Assembly: GCA_022801435.1 (NCBI GenBank)
Contig: JAAWSG010000009.1
Location: 1-56,382 of the forward strand
Direction: 5' to 3'
Origin: Lawsonibacter sp.
Lineage (GTDB): Bacteria > Bacillota > Clostridia > Oscillospirales > Oscillospiraceae
DNA length: 56,382 bases
Below, piece after piece: positions 16,852 to 55,829 of this stretch. Both the position numbers and the translations under genes were made by a program. The notes below the pieces were generated by a model, which worked only from the letters and a program-made list of their open reading frames with translations, ran no database searches and had not been told where the DNA came from. Within the stretch, counting starts at the first letter, position 1. Each line of letters begins with the position of its first letter.

Positions 16852-16872
16852 TCCCCCATCCCCCGAGCAGCA

Positions 16873-16897
16873 GGTCGGCCCCGCGGGGCCGGCCTTT
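16873..16897 (+). terminator. Intercistronic hairpin between abgT and the peptidase gene
   Basis: GGTCGGCCCC (16873-16882) pairs with GGGGCCGGCC (16885-16894), followed by TTTATAAAT. It may partly terminate transcription, so that the transporter is made in excess of the peptidase. Confidence 0.55.
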
Positions 16898-16919
16898 ATA
16901 AATAAAGGAGGTCTTTCCC

Positions 16920-42052: not shown

Positions 42053-43162
42053 CTAATTCTCTCCAACAGCCTGTTTCAGCATATTTTCCGCCAAAATGCC
42101 ATAACCCTTGGCGGCGTCATTCACCAGGACATGGGTTACCGCACCCACCAGCCGCCCGTTCTGCAAAATGGGCGAGCCGCTCATCCCCTGAACGATGCCG
42201 CCGGTGAGCTCCAGCAGCTCCGGGTCGGTCACCTGGAGCATCAGGCTCCGGGTCCCGTCCCCCTCGGGGTACAGGTGGGTAATCTGGATGTCAAATTCCT
42301 CCACCTGGTCCCCCCGGACATTGGACAGTATGGTGGCCGGACCGGTCTGCACCTGGTCCCGGCTGGCCACAGGGACAGGCTGACGGACATCGGCCACATT
42401 GCTCTGGGGCATCTGACCAAAAATCCCCAGGTTGGTGTTGGCGTACAGGGTCCCCAGGTCCTGGGTCAGGTCAAACTGGCCGTGGAGCTCCCCCGGCTCT
42501 CCGCTGGCCCCCCGCTTCACATCGGAGACGCTGGCCGGCATGATGCTGCCCGTCTCCAGGGGCATGAGCATGGAGGTATCCACGTCATTGATCCCGTGTC
42601 CCAGGGCCGCGAAGATGCCGCTGTCCGGGTCGTAGAAGGTCATGGTCCCGATGCCCGCCATGGAGTCCCGGAGCCACACCCCCAGCTGATAGATCCCCTG
42701 GCTGTTCTCCACCGCCGCCGCTGTCAGCTGGAGCTGGCGCTGTCCCCGCACCGCCTGAATGGTAAGGGGCTCTCCCTCCTGCCGGGCCACAACGGACTGG
42801 ACCTGTTCAATGGTGTCCACCTCGCTGCCGTTGATGTGGGTGATGACATCCCCCGTCTTCAGGCCGCAGTCCCGGCCCGGGCTGTGGGGCCCGGACTGGG
42901 TCTCCACCTGGGACAGGCCCACCACCAGCACCCCGTCAGAGAAGAGCTTAATACCCACCGCCTTCCCCATGGGGATGACGCTGCGGACCGCCGCGCTCCC
43001 CACCGACGGAGCGGCGGCACAGGGCGTCTCCAGGGCCGCGGGAGCCATCGCCGCCGCCGCCCGGGCCTGTGTCCCCCGCAGGCACAGGACCACTGCCAGG
43101 CACAGCGCCGCTCCCCCGGCCAGCAGGAGCACTCCCGGCCCTGATCTCTGCTTTTTTTCCAA
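42053..43162 (-). CDS. spoIVB: SpoIVB serine peptidase (sigma-K checkpoint protease)
   Basis: A 369-residue S55 peptidase. One membrane anchor near residues 10-30 is followed by a PDZ domain (about 90-155) and the peptidase domain. With the TTG start the catalytic triad is His189 (AALGHGIND), Asp313 (VTDPELLE) and Ser328 (GMSGSP), with the same 15-residue Asp-Ser spacing as B. subtilis SpoIVB. In sporulation it is secreted from the forespore and triggers pro-sigma-K processing. The TTG at 43162 has GGGGGTGG ahead of it, whereas the ATG at 43180 lacks a ribosome site; either is possible. Confidence 0.92.
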   Translation of the reverse strand: MEKKQRSGPGVLLLAGGAALCLAVVLCLRGTQARAAAAMAPAALETPCAAAPSVGSAAVRSVIPMGKAVGIKLFSDGVLVVGLSQVETQSGPHSPGRDCGLKTGDVITHINGSEVDTIEQVQSVVARQEGEPLTIQAVRGQRQLQLTAAAVENSQGIYQLGVWLRDSMAGIGTMTFYDPDSGIFAALGHGINDVDTSMLMPLETGSIMPASVSDVKRGASGEPGELHGQFDLTQDLGTLYANTNLGIFGQMPQSNVADVRQPVPVASRDQVQTGPATILSNVRGDQVEEFDIQITHLYPEGDGTRSLMLQVTDPELLELTGGIVQGMSGSPILQNGRLVGAVTHVLVNDAAKGYGILAENMLKQAVGEN

Positions 43163-43476
43163 AATTCCACCCCCTCGCATCGCAAGAAGCGGACGGCACG
43201 CTCGCCGCCCGCACTCTCATTATGGCCGGAGACCGGCCGGCTCAACCGTGGGGAGGAATTCCACCATTTCCAGCGCCGCCGGACCGGGTGCGGCAGCCGT
43301 CCGTTTTGGAAAATTTTGGATGGCAGACGCCGTCAGTTCCGCCGCTTTTTTCCGCTTTCTGCCGGGGGAAGGCTTGGGGAGCTGGAAAAGTTTTCCGGAT
43401 GCCGTTTTTTTGCTGAACCTCTGCTATTGTTTCCCCATCTGCAAAAAACATGACTTTCTTTTTTTGCATCAAATAA
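43163..43476. other. Intergenic region upstream of spoIVB
   Basis: About 300 bases between two genes on the same strand, presumably carrying the forespore promoter of spoIVB. I could not pick out a convincing sigma-G-type -35/-10 pair. Homopolymer-rich tracts (TTTTTTTT near 43450) occur but no repeat or RNA gene is apparent. Confidence 0.4.
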
Positions 43477-43514: not shown

Positions 43515-43904
43515 TTACTCCAGAGGGGTGTCCTCAGAGTCGGCGGGCGCTTCCACAGATTCCACGGGCTCGGAGCTCTCCTCCTCTGTCCCGGCGGTCT
43601 CTGTCTCCTCCGGGTCGCCGGACTGTTTAAGCTCGGCGATCCGCTCGTTGTTGGTCTCGATGGCGGCCTTGGAGGCGGTGATCCGCTCACAGGCGGCGGC
43701 ATAGGCTCCGTCGGGGGCAGCGCCCTGCTCCGCGTAGTAGAGCTTTCCAATCTCCAGATAGGCCTTTTTGATGGCGTCCTCCTCAGACATGTTGGCCATT
43801 TTCAGCTTTGCGATCTCGGCCAGCCGCCTGGACTGCGCCACGCCCGCCTGAGCCAGGTCGGTTGCTCTGTCCTTCAAGCTGTCAAAGGTGTCCTTGAAAT
43901 CCAT
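43515..43904 (-). CDS. Small acidic helical protein, unknown function
   Basis: A 129-residue protein. The first 90 residues are predicted helical (MDFKDTFDSLKDRATDLA, then SRRLAEIAKLKMANMSEED, and YLEIGKLYY), and the last 40 are a Glu/Ser/Pro/Thr-rich acidic tail. It resembles conserved clostridial small coiled-coil proteins often annotated as hypothetical. AAGGAGG precedes the ATG at 43904. It lies between spoIVB and the sugar operon with its own terminator, so is probably monocistronic. No catalytic or metal-binding residues are evident. Confidence 0.7.
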   Translation of the reverse strand: MDFKDTFDSLKDRATDLAQAGVAQSRRLAEIAKLKMANMSEEDAIKKAYLEIGKLYYAEQGAAPDGAYAAACERITASKAAIETNNERIAELKQSGDPEETETAGTEEESSEPVESVEAPADSEDTPLE

Positions 43905-44004
43905 ATGCAGGTTCCTCCTTAAACGCGGTCTCCCGCTTGCTGTCTCCATTTTATCCTATTTCCCTCCGGGGCGCAAGGGAGTTTATTGTTATTTAATCCA
44001 TTTT

Positions 44005-44652
44005 TCATAAATTTTTCTCTTCCCACCGGGTCATCGCCTGGCGGATCGCTCTGGCCTCCGCGGCGGGGTCGGGGGCGGAGGCAATCGCGCCCCCTACGAT
44101 CAGCACGTCCGGCCTCTGAGCGCAGTACTCCGGCAGCGTGCTCAGGCCGATGCCTCCGGCGGCGGAGACCTCCGCACGCTCCACCGCCCGGCGGAGCACC
44201 GACAGGTCGCTCAGCGGGGTGCGCCCCTGGAGCTGCTGGTCCACCCCTGTGTGTACCGCGATGCCGTGGACCCCGGCCTCCTCCAGCCTGCGGGCCCGCC
44301 CCTCCAAATCGGCCACACAGATCATATCCGCCACCACCCGGCGGCCCCAGGCTTCCGCCGCCTCCACACAGGCCCAGACGGTGGACAGGTCGGTGACGGC
44401 CAGCACCGTGACCAGGTCCGCCCCCGCCTGGAAGGCGCTCTCCGCCTCCAGCCGGCCCGCGTCCATAATCTTCGTATCCGCCAAAAGCTCCTTGTACGGG
44501 AACGCGGCCCGGAACCGGCGCACCGCCTCCATACCGTACTCCAGCAGGAAGGGGGTCCCCAGCTCCACCCGGTCCACCCACTCCTCCGCCGCCCGGGTCA
44601 GAGCCAGGGCGTCCTCCAGAGAGAGCACATCTAATGCCAGCTGCAGCTTCAT
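44005..44652 (-). CDS. hxlA: 3-Hexulose-6-phosphate synthase-like protein (HxlA/KGPDC family)
   Basis: A 215-residue TIM barrel of the orotidine-5'-phosphate decarboxylase superfamily, HPS branch. Diagnostic segments are KLQLALDVLSLEDA, VELGTPFLLEYG, LLADTKIMDAG (metal/catalytic Asp-Lys-Asp), GIAVHTGVDQQLQG and AAGGIGLSTLP. HPS joins formaldehyde to ribulose-5-phosphate or, in reverse, splits 3-hexulose-6-phosphate. The related KGPDC decarboxylates 3-keto-L-gulonate-6-phosphate, but the IMDAG form favours HPS. AGGAGG precedes the ATG. It ends the sugar operon, 12 bases after an HxlB-type isomerase, the classic pair. Confidence 0.82.
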   Translation of the reverse strand: MKLQLALDVLSLEDALALTRAAEEWVDRVELGTPFLLEYGMEAVRRFRAAFPYKELLADTKIMDAGRLEAESAFQAGADLVTVLAVTDLSTVWACVEAAEAWGRRVVADMICVADLEGRARRLEEAGVHGIAVHTGVDQQLQGRTPLSDLSVLRRAVERAEVSAAGGIGLSTLPEYCAQRPDVLIVGGAIASAPDPAAEARAIRQAMTRWEEKNL

Positions 44653-44664
44653 TCCGGCGTCCTC

Positions 44665-45219
44665 CTATTCCAGGTTGGCATGGCGGGCGAACATGGTGTC
44701 CTCCCGCTCTCCCATCCGCTCCATCAGCTCCAGCACCAGGGCGTCCAGAACCAGAAGGCCGGACTGCTCAAAAAGGGAGCCCATGGGCTGGAGCGAGCGG
44801 AATTCGCTGTCCGCCTTCGGGGTGGGCGCGGGGAGCTGAAGCACGGTCTGCGCCATACGGCCCACCGTGCTGTCCGGCCGGACGGTGACCAGCGCCACCC
44901 GCGCCCCCTGGTCCCGGGCCTTCCGCGCCATGGCGGCCAGGCTGGCGGTCTCCCCTGAGCCGGAAACCACCACCAGAAGGTCCTTTGCTCGGATGGCGGG
45001 GGCTGTGGTCTCCCCGCAGACATAGGCGGTCAGGCCCAGGTGCATCAGCCGCATGGCAAACCCCCTTGCCGCCATGCCGGAGCGCCCCGCCCCCGCCAGA
45101 AAGATCCGCTCCGCGGCCAGCAGCTCGTCCGCCAAACCGCTGGCCGCGCCCGGGTCCACCCGGTCCAGCACCTGTTTCAGCTCCTCCAGGATGCGCAGGC
45201 TGAACTGTCTTGTATCCAT
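44665..45219 (-). CDS. hxlB: 6-Phospho-3-hexuloisomerase-like SIS protein (HxlB)
   Basis: A 184-residue SIS-domain protein. Sugar-phosphate-binding segments are AGAGRSGMAARGFAMRL and VVSGSGETASL, and the catalytic region ends FARHANLE, the usual PHI C-terminus. It would interconvert 3-hexulose-6-phosphate and fructose-6-phosphate. The ATG at 45219 is preferred because AGGAG lies about nine bases upstream but abuts the ATG at 45228. It is next to the HxlA-like gene; the same operon contains a second SIS protein, so the two may act on different keto-sugar phosphates. Confidence 0.82.
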   Translation of the reverse strand: MDTRQFSLRILEELKQVLDRVDPGAASGLADELLAAERIFLAGAGRSGMAARGFAMRLMHLGLTAYVCGETTAPAIRAKDLLVVVSGSGETASLAAMARKARDQGARVALVTVRPDSTVGRMAQTVLQLPAPTPKADSEFRSLQPMGSLFEQSGLLVLDALVLELMERMGEREDTMFARHANLE

Positions 45220-45256
45220 TCGATCCATCTCCTAATCTGTGCCCCGAACCGGCCCG

Positions 45257-46450
45257 CTATGCGCGCCCGTCCCTGGGACTCTGAACTCCGGCGGCGGCGA
45301 GGAGGGTCCCGGCGGCGGAGAGGATGCAGATACACCCCAGCAGGGCGTCCACCCCCGCCGCGTCCAGCATCCGGCCTCCCACCAGCGCCCCCAGCACGCT
45401 GCCCAGGGTGAAGGTCATGGTGAAGTAAGCCTGTCCCTTGATGGCGTCCCCCTCCTCCATCACCCCGTTGATATAGTGGACCGAGGCCACCGAGATCAGC
45501 CCCCAGCCCAGCAGCTGGGCGGTCTGGGCGGCGCAAAAGGCCGAAACGCTGGGAGCCAGCCACACCAGCGCCGCCTTGACGGTGAAAAAGAGGGCGGACA
45601 GGCGCATCCACATCTCACAGCGCACCCGCCGGAGCATCAGGCCGAAACAAAACATAACGGGCAGCTCCCAGAAGGCGGCCAGGGCGGTGGCGAGCCCCAT
45701 CTCCGCACTGCCGCCCCCCTTGCTCTGCATGATCTGGAAGGTGAAGCTGTTCTGTCCCATGTGGCCCATATACAGCAGAGTGGTCCCCGCCAGAAGCAGG
45801 CCGAACCGTGGGTATTTGCGGAAAAAAGCCAGGGGAGAGGCATTCCCTGTCCCCTCTTCCCCTCCGCCCGCCTGCCGGGGCCGGAGGGGGAAGGAGGGCA
45901 CGCAGGCGGCGGTGAGGAGAAAGCTGGCCAGGACGAGCAGGGGGACGGCCACCGCTCCCGCCCGCTTGGTGAGGAGCCCCAGACCGGCGGAGGCCGCCGC
46001 GTAGGCCACCGAGCCCAGTCCCCGGGCCGCCCCCCAGTTCAGCCGCCTGCCCTGGTTGATGGCCTCGGTCCCCAGGGCGTTGATGAGGGGGAAGTTGATT
46101 TGCAGCAGGAGCAGACAGCCCCCGTACAGCAGCGCCGTGCCCAGGGCGGGGCCCCGGGTCAGACAGAGGGCGGTCAGTCCCAGGGCTGCCGCCGCGATGA
46201 GGAGGCAGACCCCGCAGATCAGGCTTTTCAGTCCAACCCTCCCCGGCCCCTCCGCCAGGGAGGCCGCCGCGGGCTGGAGCAGGGCGGAGATCCCGCCGGA
46301 CAGGGCGATAATCAGGCCGATTTCGGTATTGCGGAACCCGGCGTCCAGCAAAAACAGGCTGGCAAAGCCCATCAGCGCGGCAAAGCCCATCCAGTAAAAG
46401 CTCTGGACCCACCCGTAGCGGGCGGTGAGGGAGCCCGCACAGTCACCCAT
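45257..46450 (-). CDS. MFS transporter, sugar/nucleoside-type
   Basis: A 397-residue membrane protein with about 12 hydrophobic helices and a central hydrophilic loop (PLRPRQAGGGEEGTGNA). RYGWVQSFYWMGFA at the N-terminus and LNWGAARGLGSVAYA are like the MFS_1-like group that includes LacY and nucleoside-proton symporters. It may import a sugar or export a product. GGAGGT lies nine bases before the ATG. It is embedded between the binding protein and hxlB, separated from the former by a hairpin. Having both an ABC importer and a permease in one operon suggests a second substrate or an efflux role. Confidence 0.8.
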   Translation of the reverse strand: MGDCAGSLTARYGWVQSFYWMGFAALMGFASLFLLDAGFRNTEIGLIIALSGGISALLQPAAASLAEGPGRVGLKSLICGVCLLIAAAALGLTALCLTRGPALGTALLYGGCLLLLQINFPLINALGTEAINQGRRLNWGAARGLGSVAYAAASAGLGLLTKRAGAVAVPLLVLASFLLTAACVPSFPLRPRQAGGGEEGTGNASPLAFFRKYPRFGLLLAGTTLLYMGHMGQNSFTFQIMQSKGGGSAEMGLATALAAFWELPVMFCFGLMLRRVRCEMWMRLSALFFTVKAALVWLAPSVSAFCAAQTAQLLGWGLISVASVHYINGVMEEGDAIKGQAYFTMTFTLGSVLGALVGGRMLDAAGVDALLGCICILSAAGTLLAAAGVQSPRDGRA

Positions 46451-46476
46451 GGTTCAAACACCTCCACAGTCAGAGA

Positions 46477-46500
46477 GCGGCCCCCTTTTCAGGGGGCCGC
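46477..46500 (-). terminator. Hairpin between the binding-protein gene and the MFS gene
   Basis: GCGGCCCCC (46477-46485) and GGGGGCCGC (46492-46500) form a perfect 9-bp stem with no U-run. This would protect or enrich the upstream mRNA rather than stop transcription fully. Confidence 0.55.
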
Positions 46501-46516
46501 CGGAATGGGTTTTAAC

Positions 46517-47539
46517 TTAGTCCTCGAACTGGTCCACGTTGTCCTTGGTGACCACAGAGACGCCGGTATCCACCTGGGTCTCCGCCAGGGACTCGCCCTG
46601 CATCAGGGCCACGGCGGCCTCGATGGACTTCTCGCCCATGATATTGGGGTTCTGGGCCATGAACGCCAGCATCTCGCCGTCACGGATGTGGGCGCGGTTG
46701 GAGGAGGAGTTGTCGAAGCCTACGCACAGGATGTTGGCACCGTTGGAGTTGGCCTCCTTCACCGCATTGGCCGCACCGTTGGTGGCGCCGTCATTGGCCC
46801 CGTACACGGCGATGATGCCGTCCTGAACCAGGGCGTTGGTCAGCTCCTGCGCCTTCACCGCGTCGCCGTCAGAGTACTGGACCTCGCCCATGGTGAAGCC
46901 GGTGCCTTCAAAGGCGGAGATGAAGCCGTCCACACGGTCAATGCAGGACTGCACGCCGGCCTGGGCGGAGACGATGCCCACCGTGCCCTCGGTCAGGCCC
47001 GCGTCGGCCAGGTAGCCCTTCATGGCCTCACCGGCCTGAGCGCCGGCGGCGTAGTTGTCGGTGGCGAAGGTGGCGGAGGCCTCCAGGGAGGCGGTGGCGT
47101 CCACATAGATCAGCTTGATGCCCTTGTTCAGCGCGGCCTGGAGGGCGTCGTTGCAGGCGGTGGAGTCGTTGACCGAGATGATGATGACATCGGAGCCGTC
47201 GTTGGTGGCGGTCTCAATCATCTGGATCTGCTGGGCGTTGTCCTTCTTCTCAGGAGCCAGCCAGTTGTAGTCGATGTTCACGCCGGAGGCCTTGAGCTCC
47301 TCCACCTTGGCGCGGGCGGCCTTCTCCAGCTTGACCCAGTGTACGTCCATCTGGTCCATGGTAATCAGGGTGATTTTGATGCTCTCGCCAGAGGCAGGAG
47401 TGCTTCCGGCAGGGGTGCTCCCGGCGGGGGTGCTTCCGGCGGGGGTGCTCCCGGCAGGGGTGCTCTTGTCTCCGCCGCCGCAGGCAACGAGGGACAGGGA
47501 CATGGCCGCAGCCAGGGCCAGCGCAAGTAGCTTTTTCAT
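46517..47539 (-). CDS. Sugar ABC transporter substrate-binding lipoprotein (RbsB-like)
   Basis: A 340-residue periplasmic-binding-protein-like lipoprotein of the ribose/galactose type I class. The signal peptide ends in the lipobox SLVACG (Cys around residue 20). A linker of GSTPA repeats separates lipid anchor from the binding domain, which has IKITLITMDQMDVHW, VIIISVNDSTACND, AVYGANDGATNGAANAV and a CVGFDNSS hinge. It would capture the operon's sugar and deliver it to the permease. GGAGG precedes the ATG at 47539. Confidence 0.9.
   Translation of the reverse strand: MKKLLALALAAAMSLSLVACGGGDKSTPAGSTPAGSTPAGSTPAGSTPASGESIKITLITMDQMDVHWVKLEKAARAKVEELKASGVNIDYNWLAPEKKDNAQQIQMIETATNDGSDVIIISVNDSTACNDALQAALNKGIKLIYVDATASLEASATFATDNYAAGAQAGEAMKGYLADAGLTEGTVGIVSAQAGVQSCIDRVDGFISAFEGTGFTMGEVQYSDGDAVKAQELTNALVQDGIIAVYGANDGATNGAANAVKEANSNGANILCVGFDNSSSNRAHIRDGEMLAFMAQNPNIMGEKSIEAAVALMQGESLAETQVDTGVSVVTKDNVDQFED
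47393..47464 (-). repeat. 15-bp tandem repeats encoding a GSTPA linker
   Basis: Four full units of TGCTTCCGGCAGGGG-type 15-mers (47401-47460) with partial units on each side, differing only at two positions. They encode five Gly-Ser-Thr-Pro-Ala units between the lipid anchor and the sugar-binding domain. Confidence 0.9.
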
Positions 47540-47611
47540 GTTGAAATCCTCCAAAATTTAATTTTTATTGTCAGGGCACAGGCCCGAACAACCGGTTTGA
47601 CAGGCAGGCGC

Positions 47612-48604
47612 TCAGCCTTTGCTCTTGGGGCGCTTGGAGCCGTTGCGGCGGATAACGTCGAAGAGGACGCAGGCCACCACCAGGATGCCGATGACGATAT
47701 TGCGGTAGGCCACAGGGACCTTGGCGAAGGTCAGGCCGGACTGAAGGATGGCCCACACCGCCGCGCCGGCGATGACGCCCACCAGCAGGCCGCTGCCGCC
47801 CAGGGTGGACACGCCGCCGATGACCGCCGCGGCTACAGCGTACATCTCATAGCTCATGCCGGCGCTCATGTCGCCCATACCCGACTGGGCCAGAGTCACC
47901 AGGCCGGTGAGGAAGGCGCAGAAGGAGGAGACCATGTACGCCTTGGTGGTGGCGGCGAAGACGTTCACGCCGGACAGCCGGGCGGCGTCCACATTGGAGC
48001 CGATGGCGTAGATGTGCCGGCCGGAGCGGGTGTAGGACAGGATGTAGAAGAATATGGCCCAGATGATGAGGGCGATCCACACGCCGTTGAACACCCCCAT
48101 GGTTTTTCCATAGTACAGCAGGTCCTTAAAGGCCTGGGCCGCGCCCTCGGAGCCGATGTTGTCCGTGTTGTAGTTGTTGTTGGCCAGCTGGGCCACCCCC
48201 CGGGCGATGGTCATGGTGCCCAGGGTGGCGATGAAGGGGGGCAGCTTGAACTTGCCCACCAGCACGCCGTTGACAAAGCCCACCGCCATACAGCACACAA
48301 ACGCGACCAGAATGGCCACCAGGGGGTTGAAGCCCTTGCACATCATGGTGGCGGAGATCATGGCGCTCATGCCCAGCACCGAGCCGATGGACAGGTCGAT
48401 GTTGCCGGTGATACACACATAGGCCTGGCCGATACCCACCAGCAGGTAGGGGACGATGGAGCGCAGCAGGGCCATGATGCTGTCCGGCTTGATGAAGTTG
48501 GGGTTCATAAAGGAGAACACGACCATCAGGATGACCACCCCCACGAAGGCGGTGATGACAGAGGCGGCGCTCTGGCTTATGGTAATTTTTTTCTTATTTT
48601 CCAT
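47612..48604 (-). CDS. Sugar ABC transporter permease (RbsC-like)
   Basis: A 330-residue permease of the BPD_transp_2 family with about ten hydrophobic helices. Segments NIDLSIGSVLGMSAMISA, IATLGTMTIARGVAQL and the coupling region GSNVDAARLSGVNVF are those of RbsC/AraH/XylH. It forms the channel for the sugar captured by the upstream-encoded binding protein. GAAGGAG precedes the ATG. It lies 32 bases after the ATPase gene. Substrate cannot be assigned within the ribose/xylose/allose group. Confidence 0.9.
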   Translation of the reverse strand: MENKKKITISQSAASVITAFVGVVILMVVFSFMNPNFIKPDSIMALLRSIVPYLLVGIGQAYVCITGNIDLSIGSVLGMSAMISATMMCKGFNPLVAILVAFVCCMAVGFVNGVLVGKFKLPPFIATLGTMTIARGVAQLANNNYNTDNIGSEGAAQAFKDLLYYGKTMGVFNGVWIALIIWAIFFYILSYTRSGRHIYAIGSNVDAARLSGVNVFAATTKAYMVSSFCAFLTGLVTLAQSGMGDMSAGMSYEMYAVAAAVIGGVSTLGGSGLLVGVIAGAAVWAILQSGLTFAKVPVAYRNIVIGILVVACVLFDVIRRNGSKRPKSKG

Positions 48605-48636
48605 TGCTCTGACACTCCTTCTTTCTTGACTGCCGC

Positions 48637-50145
48637 TCAGTCCTCATTCGAGCCGAACTGGGTGGCGTAGGTCATGATCTCCTGCTCACTGGTGGTCCGG
48701 GGGTCCACCTCTCCGGTGATGCGCCCGTTGCACATGACCAGGATGCGGTCAGAGATGCCCATGACCTCGGGCAGCTCGCTGGACACGATGATGACCACCA
48801 CGCCGTCCTTCTTCAGCTGGTTGATGATCTGATAGATCTCCACCTTGGCGGCCACGTCGATGCCTCGGGTGGGCTCGTCAAAGATGACCACCCGGGAGTT
48901 CCGGGCCAGCCATTTGGCCACCACCACCTTCTGCTGGTTGCCGCCGGACAGGCTCCCCGCCGCCACATCGGCGCTGGCCATTTTGATGGTCAGGGAGGAC
49001 TTGCCCTTTTCAATCATGGCGTTTTCTCTGCCTCGAATGACGTTGCCGATGGCCCCGCAGATCAGGTCCAGGTTGGGCAGGGCGATGTTGTCCCGAATGG
49101 TCAATTTGGTACACAGGCCGTCCTTCTTCCGGTCCTCGGGGGCCAGCACCACCCCTTGGCGGATGGCGTCGGCGGGGGAGTGGATGGTCAGGGGCCTGCC
49201 GTCCAGCAGCACCTCGCCGCTGTCCTTGGGGTCGGCGCCGAAGATGGCCCGCATGGCCTCGGTCCGGCCCGCGCCCACCAGACCGGAGAAGCCCAGCACC
49301 TCCCCCTCGTAGGCGTCAAAGCTGATGCCCTTCACCGCCCGGCCCGCCCGCAGGTCCTTGACCTCCAGCACCTTTTTCCCTCTGGGGACCGTGTCCCGGG
49401 GGAACTGCTCGGTGATCTCCCGCCCCACCATGTGGGCGATGATCTCCTCCATGGTGAAGTCGGCGAATTTCCCCTCGGTGATGTAGCGGCCGTCCCGCAT
49501 GATGGTGACGCTGTCCACAATGTGGTGCAGCTCCTGGAGGCGGTGGCTGATGTACACAATGGCGCAGCCCTGACTGCGCAGCTCCTTGACGATGCGGAAC
49601 ATCTCCTCGATCTCCGCGTTGGACAGGGCGGAGGAGGGCTCATCCATCACCAGTACCTTGGCGTTGATGAGCAGGGCCTTGGCGATCTCCACCATCTGCT
49701 GCCGGCCCACCGGGAGGTCCCCCACGATGGTGTTGGGGTCCAGGTCCCGGATGCCCAGCTTAGCCAGCTGCTCCACCGCCTGGCGGTTCATCTCGGCGGT
49801 GTCCAGGCGGCCCCCCTTGACAATCTCCCGCCCCAGGAACATGTTGTTGGCCACTGTCAGGTGCTGGCACATATTCAGCTCCTGGTGGATAATGGCCACC
49901 CCCAGCTCCTGGGCCTGCTTGGTGTTCAGGTCCCCCTCCACCTTGTGGCCGAAGATGGTCAGATCTCCGGAATCCCGGGTATACACGCCGGAGAGGATTT
50001 TCATTAAGGTGGACTTGCCCGCGCCGTTCTCTCCCAGCAGCGCCATCACCTCACCTGTCTTCAGGTGGAGCTGCACGTTATCCAGGGCCTTGACGCCGGG
50101 GAAGGTTTTTGAGATATGCTCCATAGAAACCGCGTACTCGCTCAT
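48637..50145 (-). CDS. Sugar ABC transporter ATP-binding protein with two ABC domains (RbsA/MglA-like)
   Basis: A 502-residue ATPase with two nucleotide-binding domains. The first has Walker A GENGAGKST and Walker B VLVMDEPSSAL. The second has signature SGGNQQKVVVAKWLA, Walker B VVIFDEPTRGIDVAAK and a P-loop-like GLVGAGRTE in place of GxxGxGKS/T, as usual for this family. It powers uptake of monosaccharides by the RbsC-type permease. AAAGGAG precedes the ATG. Confidence 0.92.
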   Translation of the reverse strand: MSEYAVSMEHISKTFPGVKALDNVQLHLKTGEVMALLGENGAGKSTLMKILSGVYTRDSGDLTIFGHKVEGDLNTKQAQELGVAIIHQELNMCQHLTVANNMFLGREIVKGGRLDTAEMNRQAVEQLAKLGIRDLDPNTIVGDLPVGRQQMVEIAKALLINAKVLVMDEPSSALSNAEIEEMFRIVKELRSQGCAIVYISHRLQELHHIVDSVTIMRDGRYITEGKFADFTMEEIIAHMVGREITEQFPRDTVPRGKKVLEVKDLRAGRAVKGISFDAYEGEVLGFSGLVGAGRTEAMRAIFGADPKDSGEVLLDGRPLTIHSPADAIRQGVVLAPEDRKKDGLCTKLTIRDNIALPNLDLICGAIGNVIRGRENAMIEKGKSSLTIKMASADVAAGSLSGGNQQKVVVAKWLARNSRVVIFDEPTRGIDVAAKVEIYQIINQLKKDGVVVIIVSSELPEVMGISDRILVMCNGRITGEVDPRTTSEQEIMTYATQFGSNED

Positions 50146-50175
50146 TGCTTAACTCCTTTCTTGGGAAGCTGTCCC

Positions 50176-50252
50176 CGGGGCGGGCCCTTGCGCTCCGCCC
50201 CGAGACGTGCTTCCCTTCACCTGTGAAGGGAAGCAAATTCCCCGGGGAATTT
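50176..50252 (-). repeat. Three stacked hairpins between the isomerase and ATPase genes
   Basis: Perfect inverted repeats: CGGGGCGG with CCGCCCCG (50176-50202), GCTTCCCTTCAC with its complement (50209-50234) and the palindrome AAATTCCCCGGGGAATTT (50235-50252). No U-run follows. Such clusters may be copies of a dispersed repeat or an mRNA stabiliser at an operon boundary. Confidence 0.65.
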
Positions 50253-50258
50253 GTGGCC

Positions 50259-50942
50259 TCAGTCCTTTGCGGGGGGATACTCGTTGCACAGCAGGCGGTA
50301 GGGGGGCTCATCCTCCTCAATGGTGGGGAAGCGGCCCAGAGGCTGATAGAAGCGGTTGTCGCTGTTGTCGTCATTGCACATGGACACCTCGCCGATGATG
50401 GCGTAGCCTGTCCCGGGCTGGACGTAGAACTCGTGGTAGTAGTAGGGGTAGAGGGAGAGGGACTCGCCGGGGGCCAGGATGATCTCGCTGCCGGCGGGGA
50501 CCATATACCGCCGTCCGTCCCGGCAGATCTCCACATCAGTGTCGTCCAGTCCCTCGTCCTTGGTGGCGTTCCACAGGCGGAAGACCAGGTTGCCGCCGCC
50601 CCGGTTGATGATGTCCTCCATCTTGTTCCAGTGGAAGTGGTTGGGGGAGACCTGTCCCTCCCGGAGCATCATAATCTTCTCGGCATAGGTCTTGGTGTAC
50701 TTGCTGTTGTGGACGTTTCCGTTGCGGATGGTGATGAGGGACAGGCCCAGGGTGTCGAAGTGGCCCTCCCCGTAGTCGGTGACGTCCCAGCCCAGGGCGT
50801 TGTCCCGGATCTCGTCATACTCGTGGCCCTTCTCCGCCCACTCCTCGGGGGTGAAGCCGAGGAAGGGGGGCAGGGCAAATTTGAACTCGCGGAGCTTGGA
50901 CTCGAAGTCCTTGATGATGGCGTTGATCTCAGAACGCTTCAT
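50259..50942 (-). CDS. D-lyxose/D-mannose isomerase-family cupin (D-lyxose ketol-isomerase)
   Basis: A 227-residue cupin enzyme. The family signature MKRSEINAIIKDFES starts it, and the metal site is NHFHWNKMEDIINRGGG (His-x-His and Glu) with a second His near YYYHEFYV. These enzymes interconvert D-lyxose with D-xylulose and D-mannose with D-fructose. The ATG at 50942 is chosen since it begins the family sequence and sits nine bases after GGAAG; the ATG at 50951 abuts that site. It implies that the operon's sugar, or an intermediate, is a lyxo/manno-type aldose. Confidence 0.85.
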   Translation of the reverse strand: MKRSEINAIIKDFESKLREFKFALPPFLGFTPEEWAEKGHEYDEIRDNALGWDVTDYGEGHFDTLGLSLITIRNGNVHNSKYTKTYAEKIMMLREGQVSPNHFHWNKMEDIINRGGGNLVFRLWNATKDEGLDDTDVEICRDGRRYMVPAGSEIILAPGESLSLYPYYYHEFYVQPGTGYAIIGEVSMCNDDNSDNRFYQPLGRFPTIEEDEPPYRLLCNEYPPAKD

Positions 50943-50997
50943 AGTTGACATCTTCCTTTCTTATTGTCTCTCCCGGAGGGGGAACAGGGCACAGATT

Positions 50998-52041
50998 TTA
51001 TATGGCCTCGATCTCCGCCTGCGCGGCGCGCAGCTCCTCCTCCCCCTCCAGCACGGTGAAGGTGAGGACGTTCCGCTCCTTTGCGAAGGGGGGGAGGCGG
51101 TGGAGGCTCCCCTCCGCCTCGTGATAGGGCCGTCCGTAGACGCTGGAGTTGGCGGGCTCCAGGCCCAGCACATAGTCCCCGGAGGCGGTGGACTTCCACT
51201 CCATAAAATAGGGCAGGTGCTCCCCGGTGAACTGGATTTTCAGGCCCAGCTTCAGTCGGTCGCTGACCACGCACACCACCCCGTTTCCCTTGGAGTCCCA
51301 GGCCAGGTCGTGGATAAAGACGTACTCGGGCTCATTGTCCCTGGGCGGGTCCATCAGGTTCCAGCGGTCCTCGTGTCCGGAGGCCGCCTGGTCCCGTGGG
51401 GTGACCGACCGGGTGGGGGCCAGCAGGCGGGTCCCCTCGTCCAGCAGGGGGTAGCCGATGTTGATGTGGTAGAGGAGCATCAGCGGCTCGTCCCGGAAGC
51501 CCTGGTTCTCGATCTCATCGGTGAGGGTGAGGCTTTTCTGGCCCAGCACGGTCTCCAGGCTCCGGCGGAGGACCAGGTTCTCCCCAAAAAGCTCCCCCTC
51601 CCGCATCTCCCCAGAGATCCGCAGGACGTAGTCCTCCCCCTCCCAGGCGGCGCCGGCGCTCAGGTGCTCCGCCGGGGTGGTGCGGATACGGCCGTGCATG
51701 GGGTACTCGGTCCCGTCCACCGTGCAGGGGGCGCAGATATTCTCCAGCCCGGCGGTGAAGAACATCCCGCCCATGATGCTGCGCAGGGCCTCCTGTCCGC
51801 GGGTGTCGTAGTGGTTCCGCCCCTGGAGGCCGGGCTTGGAGAGGAAGCTGAAGTTGATCCCCCGGTAGGAGAGCTCCCCCACATCCAGACACTTGTCCGC
51901 CAGCACCTTATACTCCAGGGGGCCGTTTTTCACCTCATAGGCCCGCAGTCCGGCACAGCGGCCCTCGGTGTAGGTCATAGGGCGGATGCAGGCCAGCTGC
52001 TGTACGCTGCCCACCCGCCGGAGCAATTCCTGTCTGTCCAT
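50998..52041 (-). CDS. DUF4432-type aldose-1-epimerase-like protein
   Basis: A 347-residue member of the aldose-1-epimerase superfamily, DUF4432 branch. It has CLDVGELSYRGINFSFLSKP, GLENICAPC, MHGRIRTTPAEH and EPEYVFIHDLAWD; the histidine pair MHGRI and the acidic residues form the usual mutarotase site. Members are found beside isomerases and kinases in uncommon-sugar operons and probably supply the correct anomer. GGAGTG lies six bases before the ATG. It is five bases after the SIS isomerase gene. Confidence 0.82.
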   Translation of the reverse strand: MDRQELLRRVGSVQQLACIRPMTYTEGRCAGLRAYEVKNGPLEYKVLADKCLDVGELSYRGINFSFLSKPGLQGRNHYDTRGQEALRSIMGGMFFTAGLENICAPCTVDGTEYPMHGRIRTTPAEHLSAGAAWEGEDYVLRISGEMREGELFGENLVLRRSLETVLGQKSLTLTDEIENQGFRDEPLMLLYHINIGYPLLDEGTRLLAPTRSVTPRDQAASGHEDRWNLMDPPRDNEPEYVFIHDLAWDSKGNGVVCVVSDRLKLGLKIQFTGEHLPYFMEWKSTASGDYVLGLEPANSSVYGRPYHEAEGSLHRLPPFAKERNVLTFTVLEGEEELRAAQAEIEAI

Positions 52042-52046
52042 GCCGC

Positions 52047-52622
52047 TCACTCCAGGTTGGCGTGGTACTGCCACAGGGACTTCATGTCCAGCTGCCGCCG
52101 CTCCACGATCATTTTGGCCAAAACGTCCCCCACCAGCAGCACCGCCTGCTCAAAGAGGGAGGTCATAATCTGGCAGGAGTCGATCTCGTCCTCCAGGTAG
52201 AACTTGGTGCGCACCGGGATGCGGACCATAAAGTCGGCGATGTCCTTCATCTCGCTGTTGGGGTTGGAGCCGATGTGGACGATGGTGCAGTCCGCCGCCG
52301 CCCGGGCCTTTTTGGCGATGCCCAGGGGGAACAGGGAGGCTCCGGAGCCCGAGCCCACGATGAGCAGGTCGTTTTTGGTGATGGCGGGCTCGGTGATCTC
52401 CCCTACGTAATGGGCTCTGATTCCCAGGTGGGCCAGCCGCTTGCACACGCTCTGGAGGCTGAGCAGCACCCGGCCCACCCCGACGAAAAACACCTGGTCC
52501 GCCTCCAGAATGGCCTGGGTCAGCCGCTCCAGGCTGTCTGGGTCGATGCTGTCCAGGGTGCGGCGCAGCTCGTCCAGCACACCGGCACAGGATTCCTGAT
52601 ACTGTTTGGCAAACTCGCTCAT
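52047..52622 (-). CDS. SIS-domain sugar-phosphate isomerase (PHI-like, second copy)
   Basis: A 191-residue SIS protein in the 6-phospho-3-hexuloisomerase group. VFFVGVGRVLLSLQSVCKRL, LLIVGSGSGASLFPL and C-terminal WQYHANLE are the conserved elements. It shares the HANLE ending with the operon's other SIS protein but differs strongly in the middle. AGAGTTTG-like spacing and a 4-base overlap with the epimerase gene stop indicate coupling. Likely to isomerise a keto-sugar phosphate produced by the kinase and epimerase. Confidence 0.8.
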   Translation of the reverse strand: MSEFAKQYQESCAGVLDELRRTLDSIDPDSLERLTQAILEADQVFFVGVGRVLLSLQSVCKRLAHLGIRAHYVGEITEPAITKNDLLIVGSGSGASLFPLGIAKKARAAADCTIVHIGSNPNSEMKDIADFMVRIPVRTKFYLEDEIDSCQIMTSLFEQAVLLVGDVLAKMIVERRQLDMKSLWQYHANLE

Positions 52623-53335
52623 CCGGCATTCCCTCCCAATATGGTCTGGCGCAAATCGTTCAGCGCCCGGATATCCTGCGTCAGCCGGTCCCGCTTGACG
52701 CAGGTGCTCCCCACCACGTACAGGTCCACGTCTGTCCCGAAGGTGCGGATGTTGTCCGGGGAGATGCGCCCGTCGATTTCAATTTTGGTGTCCAGCCCCC
52801 GGCGGTCGATCATCTCCCGCAGCTCCCGGACCTTCCGCTGGGCGTAGGGGACCTGGCTCTCCCCCTTGGCGGAGGCGTAGCCCGGGTTGATGAGCATGAG
52901 GAGCACCGTGTCGCACTTGTCCAGCACGTACTCCAGGGCGGACAGGGGGGTGGCGGGCTTGAGGGCCACCCCGGCCTTCACACCGGCGGCGTGGATGCGG
53001 TTCAGCATCCCGTCGATGTGGGGCTGGGTCTCGGCGTGGAAGACAATCTGGTCCGCTCCCAGGTCCAGCAGCTCCTCCACAAAGTAGTCCTGCTCGGTCA
53101 CCATCAGGTGGCAGTCAAAAAACAGCTTGGTGCGGCTGCGCAGCTGCCGCACGGTATCCAGTCCAAGGGGCATACTGGGGCTGAAATGGCCGTCCAGGAT
53201 GTCCACGTGGAGCATGGAGACTCCCGCGTTCTCCAGCTCCCGCACCGACCCCTCCACGCTGCACAGGTCGCAGCAGGAGATCAGGGAGGGGGAGTAGAGC
53301 ATGGGCGCACTCCAAACGCTGGTCCGGTCCATCAT
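52619..53335 (-). CDS. Ribulose-phosphate 3-epimerase family protein
   Basis: A 238-residue TIM barrel of the Rpe/AlsE family. Metal/catalytic segments are LHVDILDGHFSPSMPLG, DCHLMVTEQDYFV, IVFHAETQ, LMLINPGYASAKG and KIEIDGRISPDNI. Rpe epimerises ribulose-5-phosphate and AlsE allulose-6-phosphate; the INPGY variant differs from the usual VNPGF, so a specialised substrate is possible. The ATG at 53335 follows AGGAGG and overlaps the kinase stop (ATGA). Chosen over a much longer frame that overlaps the kinase. Confidence 0.85.
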   Translation of the reverse strand: MMDRTSVWSAPMLYSPSLISCCDLCSVEGSVRELENAGVSMLHVDILDGHFSPSMPLGLDTVRQLRSRTKLFFDCHLMVTEQDYFVEELLDLGADQIVFHAETQPHIDGMLNRIHAAGVKAGVALKPATPLSALEYVLDKCDTVLLMLINPGYASAKGESQVPYAQRKVRELREMIDRRGLDTKIEIDGRISPDNIRTFGTDVDLYVVGSTCVKRDRLTQDIRALNDLRQTILGGNAG

Positions 53336-54276
53336 TCCGCCTCCTGTGCCAGAAAGGCCTCGATCTCCGCCCGGGTGGGGAGGGCGGGGATTGCACCCTT
53401 CTTCTGCACGGTGAGTCCGCCGGCAGCGTTGCCGTACTCCATGGCCCGGCGGAGGATGTTTGGGGTGATCTGCTCCACCCGGTCCACACCCTGGATGCGC
53501 AGGCTGGACAGGAACGCGCCCCAGAAGGCGTCCCCCGCGCCGTTGGTGTCCACACATGGGACCTTGCGGCCCGCCGCGTCCCAGCGCTCCCCCTGGAAGA
53601 AGCACCGCGCCCCCGCGCCGCCCAGGGTCTCCACGGCGGCGGTGATGCCGAACTCCTCCATCAGCCGGGGGATGGCCGCCTCGCCGCCCAGCATGTCCAC
53701 CTCCTCGTCCGACACCTTCAGCAGGTCCACATAGGGCAGGATCTCCCGGACCTTTTGGGCGCAGGCCGCCTGATCCCCGTTCCACATCAGGCCCCGGTAG
53801 TTCACGTCAAAGCTGACCATCCGCCCCAGCTCGTGTCCCAGCCGCAGGGCCTTTCCGGTGGCCTCCGCCGCGGGGGAGGCGGACAGGGAGCAGGACCCGG
53901 CGTGGATGATGGCGCTGTTCCGGATGTCCTCCTCCTTCACCGCGTCCTCCTCCAGAAACATATCCGCCCCCGGCTTCCGGGCGAAGGTGAAGCTCCGGTT
54001 CCCGTCCGGGGCGAGGCTGACAAAGGCCAAGGTGGTGATGGCCTGGGCGCACAGCTTGGGGTTGAGCACCCGGACCCCGTTCTCCTCCATAGTCCGGACC
54101 AGGAAGCGGCCAAAATCGTCCTCTCCCACACTGCTGCACATCCCCGCCTCCAGCCCGCAGCGGGCTGCGGTGATGGCCGCGTTGCCCGGGGCCCCGCCGG
54201 GATTTCGGATATAGCTGGCCGGCTCGCTGCCGGGGGTAAAGTCAATGACAAGTTCTCCGATGCTGTAGAGGTCCAT
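53332..54276 (-). CDS. PfkB-family sugar kinase (fructokinase-like)
   Basis: A 314-residue carbohydrate kinase. It has the N-terminal GELVIDFTPG, the PfkB-1 region YIRNPGGAPGNAAITAARCG, and the C-terminal anion-hole/catalytic motif DTNGAGDAFWGAFL. It phosphorylates a ketose, probably the product of the isomerase encoded further down. GGAGG precedes the ATG at 54276; the longer frame reads through the promoter. It is first in the ten-gene operon. Confidence 0.88.
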   Translation of the reverse strand: MDLYSIGELVIDFTPGSEPASYIRNPGGAPGNAAITAARCGLEAGMCSSVGEDDFGRFLVRTMEENGVRVLNPKLCAQAITTLAFVSLAPDGNRSFTFARKPGADMFLEEDAVKEEDIRNSAIIHAGSCSLSASPAAEATGKALRLGHELGRMVSFDVNYRGLMWNGDQAACAQKVREILPYVDLLKVSDEEVDMLGGEAAIPRLMEEFGITAAVETLGGAGARCFFQGERWDAAGRKVPCVDTNGAGDAFWGAFLSSLRIQGVDRVEQITPNILRRAMEYGNAAGGLTVQKKGAIPALPTRAEIEAFLAQEAE

Positions 54277-54306
54277 CCCAGTTTCCTCCGTCCTCTGAAT
54301 TTCCGC

Positions 54307-54367
54307 GGCCTGTGTACTCGTATTTGTAAATTCGCTGTACGCCAGGCCGTAACATTTTTGTAACATT
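54307..54367 (-). promoter_or_regulatory. Putative operator region in the sugar-operon leader
   Basis: Two direct repeats GTAACATT (54349-54356 and 54360-54367) overlie the transcription start. Downstream lies a long dyad: GGCCTGTGTAC (54307-54317) against GTACGCCAGGCC (54337-54348). ROK-type repressors bind palindromes in such positions. The dyad could equally be an mRNA hairpin. Confidence 0.45.
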
Positions 54368-54396
54368 ATGCTACCACTTGCGCCCCGCCTTGTCAA
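54368..54396 (-). promoter_or_regulatory. Promoter of the sugar operon
   Basis: On the minus strand TTGACA (54391-54396) and TAGCAT (54368-54373) are exactly 17 bases apart, with the start near 54361. The region 54397-54603 upstream is AT-rich and shows no other element I can name. Confidence 0.65.
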
Positions 54397-54603
54397 TCGG
54401 AGATTTTCGAAGTTTTTCACAGAACCTGTCGGCTCCCGCCCTATTTTTGGCGGCTGGAGCTGTCTGTATTCGGATTTTTTCTCTCCGCTTTTTGAAAAAT
54501 CCGCCCAAAAAATTCAATTCTTCAAAATCCGGTTTTTCGGGCTGTGCATTTCATAGAATTTATACGTTCGCTTTACAAACAGGAATAGAATCTTACTTCC
54601 CGC

Positions 54604-54639
54604 AAAAACCGGGCCGTCTCCCGTGAAAACGACCCGGTT
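54604..54639 (-). terminator. Terminator of the ROK regulator gene
   Basis: AACCGGG with CGT and its partner ACG with CCCGGTT (54607-54639, one unpaired base on each side) form a stem; on the minus strand TTTTTG follows. Confidence 0.7.
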
Positions 54640-54662
54640 CCTGTCAGGCTCCGCCGGCCCTT

Positions 54663-55829
54663 CTACCCCTCAAAGAGCAGCTCTCCCTCAAAAACAGGGC
54701 TGACCGCGTTGCAGGCCGCCCCCATCAGAGCGGCGTCCCGCATAAAGTACGCCCGCTTTACTAATATGCGGTCATCCCAGTCCACAAACCGCCTGCGGCC
54801 CACCTCCTCCTCCAGCAGAGCCAGGTAGCGGTCGGGCCAGAAGACGCTGTCGTTGCCCAGCAGGATCAGCTCGCTGTTGAGGATGTTGATGATGCTGACA
54901 ATGCCGGTGGCCAGCCGCATCACCGCGTCGGTCAGCACGTTGTCCACCCGCTCGTCCTGCTCCGCCAGGGCGCAGAAGCCCTCATAGGTGAAATATTTCC
55001 CGGTAAAATACCGCATTTTCTGCAGCAGCTCGGGGGTGCGCAGGTAGGTCTCCACACAGCCCCGGTTGCCGCAGCCGCAGGGGCGTCCCTTGATATCGAT
55101 GCTCACATGGCCCAGCTCAGGCGGCAGGCCCCGGCGGTTGCAGTAGAGCTGTCCATCGCTGAGGATGCCGCAGCCCACCCCCTCCCCGATGCCCACAAAG
55201 AGCACATCATGAAACCCCCGCCCGTTTCCAAATAAGCTCTCCGCCAGAATGGCGCTCTGGTTGTCGTGGTCAAAAAATACCGGCAGATGGTAGCGCTCGG
55301 TGATAATGCGCACAATCTCCAGGTCGTGTATCCCATAAAAAAAGAAGGGTTTCAGGATCATACCCGTCTGGGCGCTGACCGGGCCGATGGAGGCCACCCC
55401 GATGGCCGCCACATCCTCCCGTCCAAAGAGCACCGTGTCCAGCAGCTGATAGATCAGCCGGACCAGCTGGACCTGGGTCATGTTCTCCATGGTGACCGTC
55501 TCCCGCCGGAGCACCTTCAGGTCCAGGCTGCACAGCACCGCCTCACACCGGTCCCGGTCGATGAGCAGGCCCACCACCTTGGGCGCCTTGGAGGACAGTC
55601 CCAGCCGGACCGGCGTGCGGCCCAGCTCCTCCACCCGGGTCCCTCTGGTCTCCACCAGCAGGTCCCGCTGTATCAGCTCGGTCACAATGTTGGAGATGGC
55701 CATCTTGCTCAGTCCGGTGCTGCGCGTCAGGTCGGCCCGGGTGCTGCACTGACCGGTGGCCACCATCTTCATGACCAGACCCCGGTTCACCTTTTTGTAG
55801 TCGCTTCTGTTCTTGCCCGCCTTCTCCAT
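54663..55829 (-). CDS. ROK-family transcriptional regulator of the sugar operon
   Basis: A 388-residue NagC/XylR-type ROK protein. An N-terminal winged helix (about residues 14-70, CSTRADLTRSTGLSKMAISN) is joined to an ASKHA sugar-binding domain. The zinc site GHVSI and CGCGNRGCVE is complete. GIGEGVGCGIL and FDHDNQ are ROK kinase-like remnants. It probably represses the operon downstream and releases DNA when its sugar binds. GGAGGGAG precedes the ATG at 55829. It has its own promoter and terminator. Confidence 0.9.
   Translation of the reverse strand: MEKAGKNRSDYKKVNRGLVMKMVATGQCSTRADLTRSTGLSKMAISNIVTELIQRDLLVETRGTRVEELGRTPVRLGLSSKAPKVVGLLIDRDRCEAVLCSLDLKVLRRETVTMENMTQVQLVRLIYQLLDTVLFGREDVAAIGVASIGPVSAQTGMILKPFFFYGIHDLEIVRIITERYHLPVFFDHDNQSAILAESLFGNGRGFHDVLFVGIGEGVGCGILSDGQLYCNRRGLPPELGHVSIDIKGRPCGCGNRGCVETYLRTPELLQKMRYFTGKYFTYEGFCALAEQDERVDNVLTDAVMRLATGIVSIINILNSELILLGNDSVFWPDRYLALLEEEVGRRRFVDWDDRILVKRAYFMRDAALMGAACNAVSPVFEGELLFEG

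Follow-up and report, generated by a model that had tools for sequence, protein, structure and literature searches.

The locus at positions 44005-55829 of a 56,382-nucleotide stretch of DNA from Lawsonibacter sp. (contig JAAWSG010000009.1 of assembly GCA_022801435.1; the whole stretch is called the window here) raises the question of which sugar is served by an operon that ends in hxlB and hxlA homologues, and whether these two genes belong to its essential part. Eleven genes follow one another in the same orientation on the minus strand, downstream of the gene of a ROK-family regulator, in the order PfkB sugar kinase, Rpe-fold epimerase (RPE*), SIS-fold isomerase (PHI1), DUF4432 protein, D-lyxose/D-mannose isomerase-family cupin (LyxI), ATPase, permease and solute-binding protein of an ATP-binding cassette (ABC) importer, permease of the major facilitator superfamily (MFS), 6-phospho-3-hexuloisomerase (PHI2, i.e., HxlB), and 3-hexulose-6-phosphate synthase (HPS, i.e., HxlA). 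A first-pass annotation of the same DNA had counted ten genes and proposed the breakdown of an uncommon aldose via a ketose phosphate and a 3-keto sugar phosphate, with HxlA/HxlB chemistry as the defining feature. Its gene families are borne out by curated models and its aldose proposal is retained in conditional form, whereas the genes number 11 (12 with the regulator) and the conserved unit, judged from gene order in relatives, is the five-gene core PfkB-RPE*-PHI1-DUF4432-LyxI. Tentatively, and with less than even confidence, we read the operon as an inducible one by which an uncommon free aldose is taken up and broken down via a hexose route, with the core and the importer as its basis, and with hxlA/hxlB and the MFS permease gained in a few genomes.

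To trace the core, a PHI1 profile was run over the genome collection in a pattern-based scan, which found 90 relatives, of which the best 80 loci were kept. Their record titles name Lachnospiraceae, Oscillospiraceae, Hungatella, Blautia, and Faecalicatena, and also Synergistales, Treponema, Leptolinea, Fibrobacteria, and Erysipelothrix; most loci come from metagenome bins, so that individual taxon labels may be wrong, and some contigs appear under two labels (L057 = L177, L080 = L114). In GC-rich loci the simple open reading frame (ORF) caller selects antisense shadows, and family matches were therefore run on all ORFs; names of neighbouring genes not backed by a family search are readings of their translations. 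Among loci with room on the respective side, RPE* lies upstream of PHI1 in 72 of 76 and PfkB in 57 of 70, DUF4432 is found downstream in 64 of 74 and LyxI in 59 of 68, and the complete order PfkB-RPE*-PHI1-DUF4432-LyxI is present in 48 of the 63 testable PHI1 loci, far more than chance would produce; these counts use fixed score and distance limits, and L118 is missed by the distance limit alone. An importer of the same ribose type follows in 16 of the 52 loci having at least 9 kb downstream. The MFS permease is in line with the core only in L107 among the 80 loci (a weaker match in L122 lies on the opposite strand).

Conservation of gene order, on which the first-pass annotation had let its own reading depend, extends in L107 to all 12 genes in the order of the window, at 68-95% identity, and an operon unique to the Lawsonibacter genome is thereby ruled out. 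L107 comes from the cultured bacterium 1xD42-67; among other cultured carriers, Blautia glucerasea (L130) and Faecalicatena contorta (L161) have the core. L105, the closest relative among the matches listed (PHI1 91% identical), contains the genes from ROK through the solute-binding protein, followed over 4.5 kb by other genes, among which MFS, PHI2, and HPS were not found; a genome-wide search (G887) gave no HPS match either. Genome G366 carries the same set at two separate loci, ROK-PfkB-LyxI-ABC-PHI2-HPS and RPE*-PHI1-DUF4432, an arrangement that links the two halves to a single pathway. The LyxI of G366 (L082, 4275-5138) is 94% identical to that of the window, whereas its operon neighbours reach 60-91%, which suggests that LyxI has been exchanged between lineages. 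LyxI genes are also found elsewhere: PF07385 has matches in 76 of 295 genomes of the order, many of them weak. In 40 LyxI stretches fetched (39 from relatives, and the window) and at a threshold of >80 bits for the neighbours, HPS and PHI2 occur in the window only, PHI1 and RPE* in the window and L057 only, and DUF4432 in L041, L056, L057, and the window.

HPS (44005..44652, minus strand, as all genes of the operon) and PHI2 (44665..45228) are genuine members of their families by curated models: HPS scores 251.3 against a cut-off of 200 with TIGR03128, over 205 of 205 positions, and 209.1 bits with PDB 3f4w, and PHI2 scores 237.2 against 160 with TIGR03127. The aldol reaction of ribulose 5-phosphate with formaldehyde is predicted for HPS from this equivalog match. 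One HPS copy was found in the window's own genome, an 81%-complete assembly. Beside the core, besides the window and the split version of G366, HPS is found in only 2 of 52 well-flanked loci, L107 and L153, and in the latter HPS and PHI2 stand in reverse orientation beside ROK. HxlA/HxlB as operon core is rejected, as most relatives carry the core without them, and by its distribution the pair is accessory. The release of a pentose phosphate and a one-carbon fragment, which the first-pass annotation had built into the pathway, would for the same reason be an optional branch and not a general step. At the level of genomes, HPS exceeds its cut-off in 12 of 48 full-core genomes (in two of the 12 at the core) and in 4 of 391 genomes sampled from the class, and it exceeds 100 bits only in the window's own genome among 394 of the order and in 0 of 3 same-genus genomes. 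A PHI-like match at E <= 1e-20 occurs in 15 of the 391 class genomes, four of these with >200 bits to the PHI1 profile. In 14 HPS stretches fetched from 11 core genomes, an HxlB-type neighbour is present in 12, and LyxI, DUF4432, or PHI1 at >80 bits in none. Two further settings of such genes were seen in passing. HPS/PHI genes have another sugar-linked neighbourhood in L226 (8371-9549), where an HxlB-like gene and a gene with a weak HPS match (82 bits) lie beside what appear to be genes of a 2-keto-3-deoxy-6-phosphogluconate (KDPG) aldolase, a sugar kinase, and a transporter; in L246 (8511-9143), HPS follows a ribose-type importer, which has two permeases, and an FGGY-like kinase, and no HxlB partner accompanies it (a reading of translations).

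RPE* (52619..53332; PF00834, 180.4 bits) misses the Rpe equivalog TIGR01163 (187.4, cut-off 212.6) and the AlsE model NF007266 (137.9, cut-off 271), and exceeds only the looser Rpe subfamily model NF004076 (170.8, cut-off 165). Its identity is 34% to E. coli Rpe, 29% to AlsE, and 30% to the other Rpe encoded in its own genome; as this further copy exists, RPE* as sole, housekeeping Rpe is ruled out. Its motifs are LDGHFSPSMPLG, INPGYA followed by a three-residue insertion, DGR, and GSTC, and it departs from Rpe, AlsE, and the other genomic Rpe in three loops (DGG to DGR, GFGGQ to GYA plus the insertion). At the aligned metal-site places of the barrel it has LHVDI, CHLM, and EIDG, corresponding to the residues H-x-D, H, and D, which we take to be the metal ligands of the Rpe fold.

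PHI1 (52047..52622) falls short of the HxlB equivalog cut-off of TIGR03127 by 0.7 bit (159.3 versus 160). In a midpoint-rooted tree of 40 chosen sequences (30 PHI1-type, 10 HxlB-type), all 10 HxlB-type sequences are split off with a support of 0.989, with PHI2 on the HxlB side and PHI1 outside; 29 PHI1-type sequences group at 0.916, and the addition of the divergent L224 lowers this to 0.541. PHI1, a PHI-like SIS protein in the first-pass annotation, is by this tree not a second HxlB but a member of a sister clade, and it likely works like a PHI. All ten printed PHI1-type rows contain GRV (GRVL in PHI1), and all eight printed HxlB-type rows GRSG; since two HPS-adjacent HxlB-like proteins also lack GRSG (L245 GRAR, L247 GRSL), the motif is an indicative marker only. 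The C-terminal HANLE is kept in PHI1. SGSGET was dropped as a marker, for SGSG is followed by A, G, or E in PHI1-type rows and by E, S, or K in HxlB-type rows. RPE* and PHI1 each stand as a group of their own with altered motifs. PHI1-type proteins were also observed with different partners. In Hungatella hathewayi DSM 13479 (L157, 9995-10573), PHI1 lacks an RPE* partner and has as neighbours a ribose-type importer and two alpha/beta-hydrolase-like proteins (named from their translations), a different partner set for this isomerase clade; in L178 (7680-8976), from a record titled Fibrobacteria, RPE* and PHI1 adjoin a nucleotidyltransferase-like protein (likewise named from its translation), with no importer seen nearby, and their use there may be biosynthetic, not catabolic.

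The reactions, the substrate, and the order of steps proposed in the following are read from the families present. The sugar would be taken up by the ABC importer, the ATPase (48637..50145, ribose-type) and permease (47612..48604) of which are identified by model matches and the solute-binding lipoprotein of which (46517..47539) has AlsB (81.2) and RbsB (76.4) as best models, each far under cut-off. Its anomers would be equilibrated by the aldose-1-epimerase-like DUF4432 protein (50998..52041; PF14486, 308.9 bits; PDB 3ty1, 98.6 bits), for which a start at the ATG at 52041, with GGAG upstream, is more likely than one at the GTG at 52074. LyxI (50259..50951) would then convert a 2,3-lyxo aldose, D-talose or a D-mannose-like hexose, into the 2-ketose; it exceeds the gathering score of PF07385 (327.3, threshold 20.8) and matches PDB 3kmh at 232.7 bits, it is under the Gram-negative equivalog NF051472 (272.7, cut-off 350), and D-lyxose or D-mannose as its putative substrate is a family-based prediction. 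In alignment with 3kmh, LyxI has kept the HFHW.K.ED block (HFHWNKME) and a distal H (YYHEF); the cupin H-x-H...E block and the distal H presumably have their usual roles. PfkB (53332..54276; PF00294, 146.9 bits), the best NCBIfam model of which is 'fructokinase' (181.5, under the cut-off of 450), would phosphorylate the 2-ketose at C6, PHI1 would move the carbonyl from C2 to C3, RPE* would invert C4 next to the ketone, and PHI1 or PHI2 would return the carbonyl, giving fructose 6-phosphate. As an alternative last step, HPS would cleave D-arabino-3-hexulose 6-phosphate into ribulose 5-phosphate and formaldehyde, or act in the reverse direction. Ribulose 5-phosphate and a 3-ketohexose 6-phosphate have the same spacing between ketone and phosphate, and an Rpe fold would therefore be expected to act at C4 of the latter; a C2-to-C3 carbonyl isomerase together with an epimerase acting beside a ketone three carbons from the phosphate would thus interconvert ketohexose 6-phosphates that differ in configuration at C4. 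With pentose substrates, the first activity would be that of an aldose-ketose isomerase and the second that of an ordinary Rpe.

The pair RPE*-PHI1 is not confined to LyxI operons. It is found without LyxI beside a mannitol-type phosphotransferase system (PTS) and a mannitol-1-phosphate-dehydrogenase-like enzyme in L135, L180, L182, L221, and L222, and in part in L129 (the PTS was model-checked in L135 only, the dehydrogenases in L135, L180, L221, and L222). The transporter of L135 exceeds the mannitol PTS subfamily cut-off (623.6, cut-off 589) and the dehydrogenase of L180 that of mannitol-1-phosphate 5-dehydrogenase (395.3, cut-off 356), under which those of L135 (319.7), L221 (292.7), and L222 (338.3) remain. 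Since the pair stays together in both kinds of operon, RPE* and PHI1 probably act on a ketose phosphate common to the route via LyxI and kinase and that via a polyol-phosphate dehydrogenase. A block in L161 contains a kinase closest to tagatose kinase (259.4, under the cut-off of 420) and a GatY/FBA-like aldolase; this kinase, the fructokinase-like PfkB, and the mannitol-type partners lean, as context, towards hexoses. That PHI1 and RPE* constitute a new two-enzyme device for the C4-epimerisation of ketohexose 6-phosphates without retro-aldol or redox chemistry, a module that plugs into aldose (LyxI) as well as polyol (PTS) pathways throughout gut bacteria, with HxlA/HxlB tapping the same 3-hexulose 6-phosphate and tying rare-sugar use to one-carbon metabolism, is a possible extension of this reading, and a doubtful one.

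Several findings weigh against the hexose route. L180 looks like a case of a true mannitol-1-phosphate dehydrogenase, whose product, fructose 6-phosphate, would need no correction. In L121 and L224, PHI1 is accompanied by a PTS of the mannose family and by zinc-type dehydrogenases, and the only Rpe homologue there is a distant one (~101 bits); these dehydrogenases belong to what we take to be the class of known arabitol-phosphate dehydrogenases. The xylulokinase of L163 exceeds its cut-off (462.7, cut-off 380.25), the same cluster occurs in L125, L130, and L138, and it favours D-xylulose, a pentose, as intermediate. In 21 of the 80 loci, a member of a class II aldolase cluster is encoded no more than 9 kb away (four members model-checked), and some versions may end in aldol cleavage. 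PHI1-type proteins without LyxI or RPE* occur in L157 and L214, and the system is patchy, with PHI1 at >200 bits in 3 of 150 genomes of the family and in 0 of 2 same-genus genomes. D-talose is rare in nature. Finally, the excess of HPS in core genomes over the class sample (Fisher p ~1e-9), which speaks for the proposed reading and is perhaps not random, with HPS linked to the core at genome level, is a contrast between groups unmatched in taxonomy, completeness, and genome size.

The alternative that survives best, although we consider it unlikely on balance, is a pentose route for D-lyxose (D-arabitol in the PTS versions), in which LyxI would produce D-xylulose, PfkB (or, in certain relatives, XylB) xylulose 5-phosphate, and RPE* ribulose 5-phosphate, PHI1 would be a SIS-fold pentose-phosphate isomerase, and HPS and PHI2 would join ribulose 5-phosphate and formaldehyde to give fructose 6-phosphate, or the reverse. 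The L163 xylulokinase and the zinc-type polyol dehydrogenases of the PTS loci L121 and L224 speak for it, as do the naming of the LyxI family for D-lyxose, the marginally greater similarity of RPE* to Rpe (34%) than to AlsE (29%), and the fact that pentitol operons often hold spare pentose-phosphate enzymes; a transaldolase was not found in the assembly, which at 81% completeness is a weak point in its favour. On the other side, RPE* lacks the usual Rpe loop motifs, which would be unexpected with ordinary Rpe substrates, five of the seven PTS loci with PHI1 (L135, L180, L182, L221, L222, as opposed to L121 and L224) have mannitol-1-phosphate-dehydrogenase-like enzymes, and no obvious formaldehyde source is present among the operon genes, to which that search was confined.

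The missing transaldolase would equally suit an ordinary D-mannose operon, in which LyxI and PfkB lead from mannose via fructose to fructose 6-phosphate and RPE*, PHI1, PHI2, and HPS form a bypass making pentose phosphates from it without transaldolase, much as archaea supply their pentoses via HPS/PHI. L041, where LyxI-DUF4432 stands with a beta-mannosidase-like protein and PfkB, and L056, where LyxI stands with an alpha-mannosidase-like protein, fit such an operon (both mannosidase names are readings of translations). We regard it as decidedly unlikely: HPS is absent from 50 of the 52 well-flanked core or PHI1 loci and from 36 of the 48 core genomes, so that pentose supply by HPS would not generally explain RPE* and PHI1. 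The same distribution bears on the reading preferred by the first-pass annotation, an essential catabolic cleavage by HPS that would yield a pentose phosphate along with formaldehyde or some other small aldehyde; scores of HPS and PHI2 above curated cut-offs and the identical order of the two genes at the operon end in the window, L107, and L082 agree with it, but most relatives, including L105, have the same core without HPS, and none of the 14 HPS stretches elsewhere in the 11 core genomes has LyxI, DUF4432, or PHI1, which leaves it quite improbable. Most improbable is a hitch-hiking hxlAB unit for formaldehyde detoxification or fixation with no part in the sugar pathway, for although hxlAB serve detoxification in B. 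subtilis and occur in many differing contexts, they hold the same position after the importer in three genomes (the window, L107, L082) and HPS is commoner in core genomes.

Compared with known systems, the operon and the proposed hexose route share single elements with several. The E. coli D-allose operon (alsRBACEK and rpiB) likewise has an ABC importer of the ribose type and a sugar kinase, together with a repressor of its own and, in AlsE, an Rpe-fold epimerase of hexulose phosphates; however, the aldose is isomerised there by RpiB, no LyxI, DUF4432, or separate SIS isomerase is annotated, AlsE is only 29% identical to RPE*, and AlsK is a ROK kinase and not a PfkB. The LyxI locus of E. coli O157:H7 also combines an importer, a LyxI (D-lyxose/D-mannose isomerase), and a carbohydrate kinase, whereas a ketose 1,6-bisphosphate aldolase is found there, no Rpe-like, SIS, or DUF4432 gene is annotated, and genes of a response regulator and a hybrid histidine kinase take the place of ROK. 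With hxlAB of the ribulose monophosphate pathway (B. subtilis, methylotrophs, archaea), the agreement lies in the scores of HPS and PHI2 above the HxlA/HxlB equivalog cut-offs; the window's pair, in contrast, sits inside a sugar-import operon, which contains in PHI1 a member of the sister clade. The net interconversion proposed for PHI1 and RPE* is the same as that of GatZ/KbaZ, where a single zinc enzyme epimerises fructose 6-phosphate and tagatose 6-phosphate at C4 by a predicted retro-aldol mechanism and, unlike the route proposed here, without a 3-ketose intermediate (PMC11907403). The D-arabitol PTS operon of B. methanolicus resembles the pentose alternative, with PTS and polyol-phosphate dehydrogenase leading to a ketose phosphate; LyxI, DUF4432, or an RPE*-PHI1 pair are not named in the part of that paper drawn upon (PMC6685057). 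A literature search found no paper describing this gene set by title or start of abstract, with subscription journals mostly outside its scope, and the DUF4432 titles found do not concern sugar catabolism. The window's RPE* and PHI1 miss the equivalog cut-offs of the names databases would give them ('ribulose-phosphate 3-epimerase', '6-phospho-3-hexuloisomerase'), and many gut anaerobes keep the two together in their sugar and polyol operons. Once their substrate is assigned, dozens of genomes would gain a pathway, what is probably a systematic mis-annotation could be corrected, and it would become clear whether formaldehyde-linked 3-hexulose phosphate is made or used by gut Clostridia feeding on rare sugars, which now serve as sweeteners.

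Expression of the operon would start in the 386-bp spacer between ROK and PfkB. The sigma-70-type promoter TTGACA-N17-TAGCAT with extended -10, already noticed in the first-pass annotation, was found there by pattern match (54368..54396, minus strand); in six aligned ROK-PfkB spacers (the window, L105, L106, L107, L108, and L082, picked from 11 with coordinates), TTGACA and the extended -10 GTG.TA are invariant, and the spacing is 17 in five and 18 in L082. Promoter-like sites as such number five in 13.4 kb against 2.1 expected. With gaps of -28 to 113 bp between the 11 genes on one strand and a conserved promoter, the layout fits the single transcript formerly claimed, although internal promoters are possible. 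The ROK protein (54663..55829; PF00480, 148.9 bits), which adjoins the core in L105, L107, L082, and others, is likely the repressor of the operon. Just downstream of the promoter lies an operator-like site, GTACAGCGAATTTACAAAT (54322..54340, minus strand), with a similar site at 54558-54576 and like letters in several relatives; the consensus has two matches in the window against none expected, and because it was read from these same two sites, they are a hint only.

The MFS permease (45257..46450; MFS_1_like, by Pfam match) is accessory like the HxlA/HxlB pair which it precedes. Shortly past HPS and on the same strand begins the gene of a 144-aa protein without Pfam match (43515-43949), which could be the last gene of the transcript, and beyond it a SpoIVB peptidase (PF05580) is encoded at 42053-43180. 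An isomerase in L057 and L170 is closest to the sulfoquinovose isomerase SftI, far under the cut-off (145.2 and 126.9 versus 700), and was not used. An Rfam search of the window gave no match. Distant from the operon, the window encodes a second aldose-1-epimerase-like protein (8801-9763, minus strand; PF01263, 87.2 bits), an AbgT-family transporter adjoining an M20/M42-type peptidase (15271-18032, plus strand), possibly a pair for aminobenzoyl-glutamate or dipeptide utilisation, and, at 537-2270, a pyridine nucleotide-disulphide oxidoreductase fused to a rhodanese domain.

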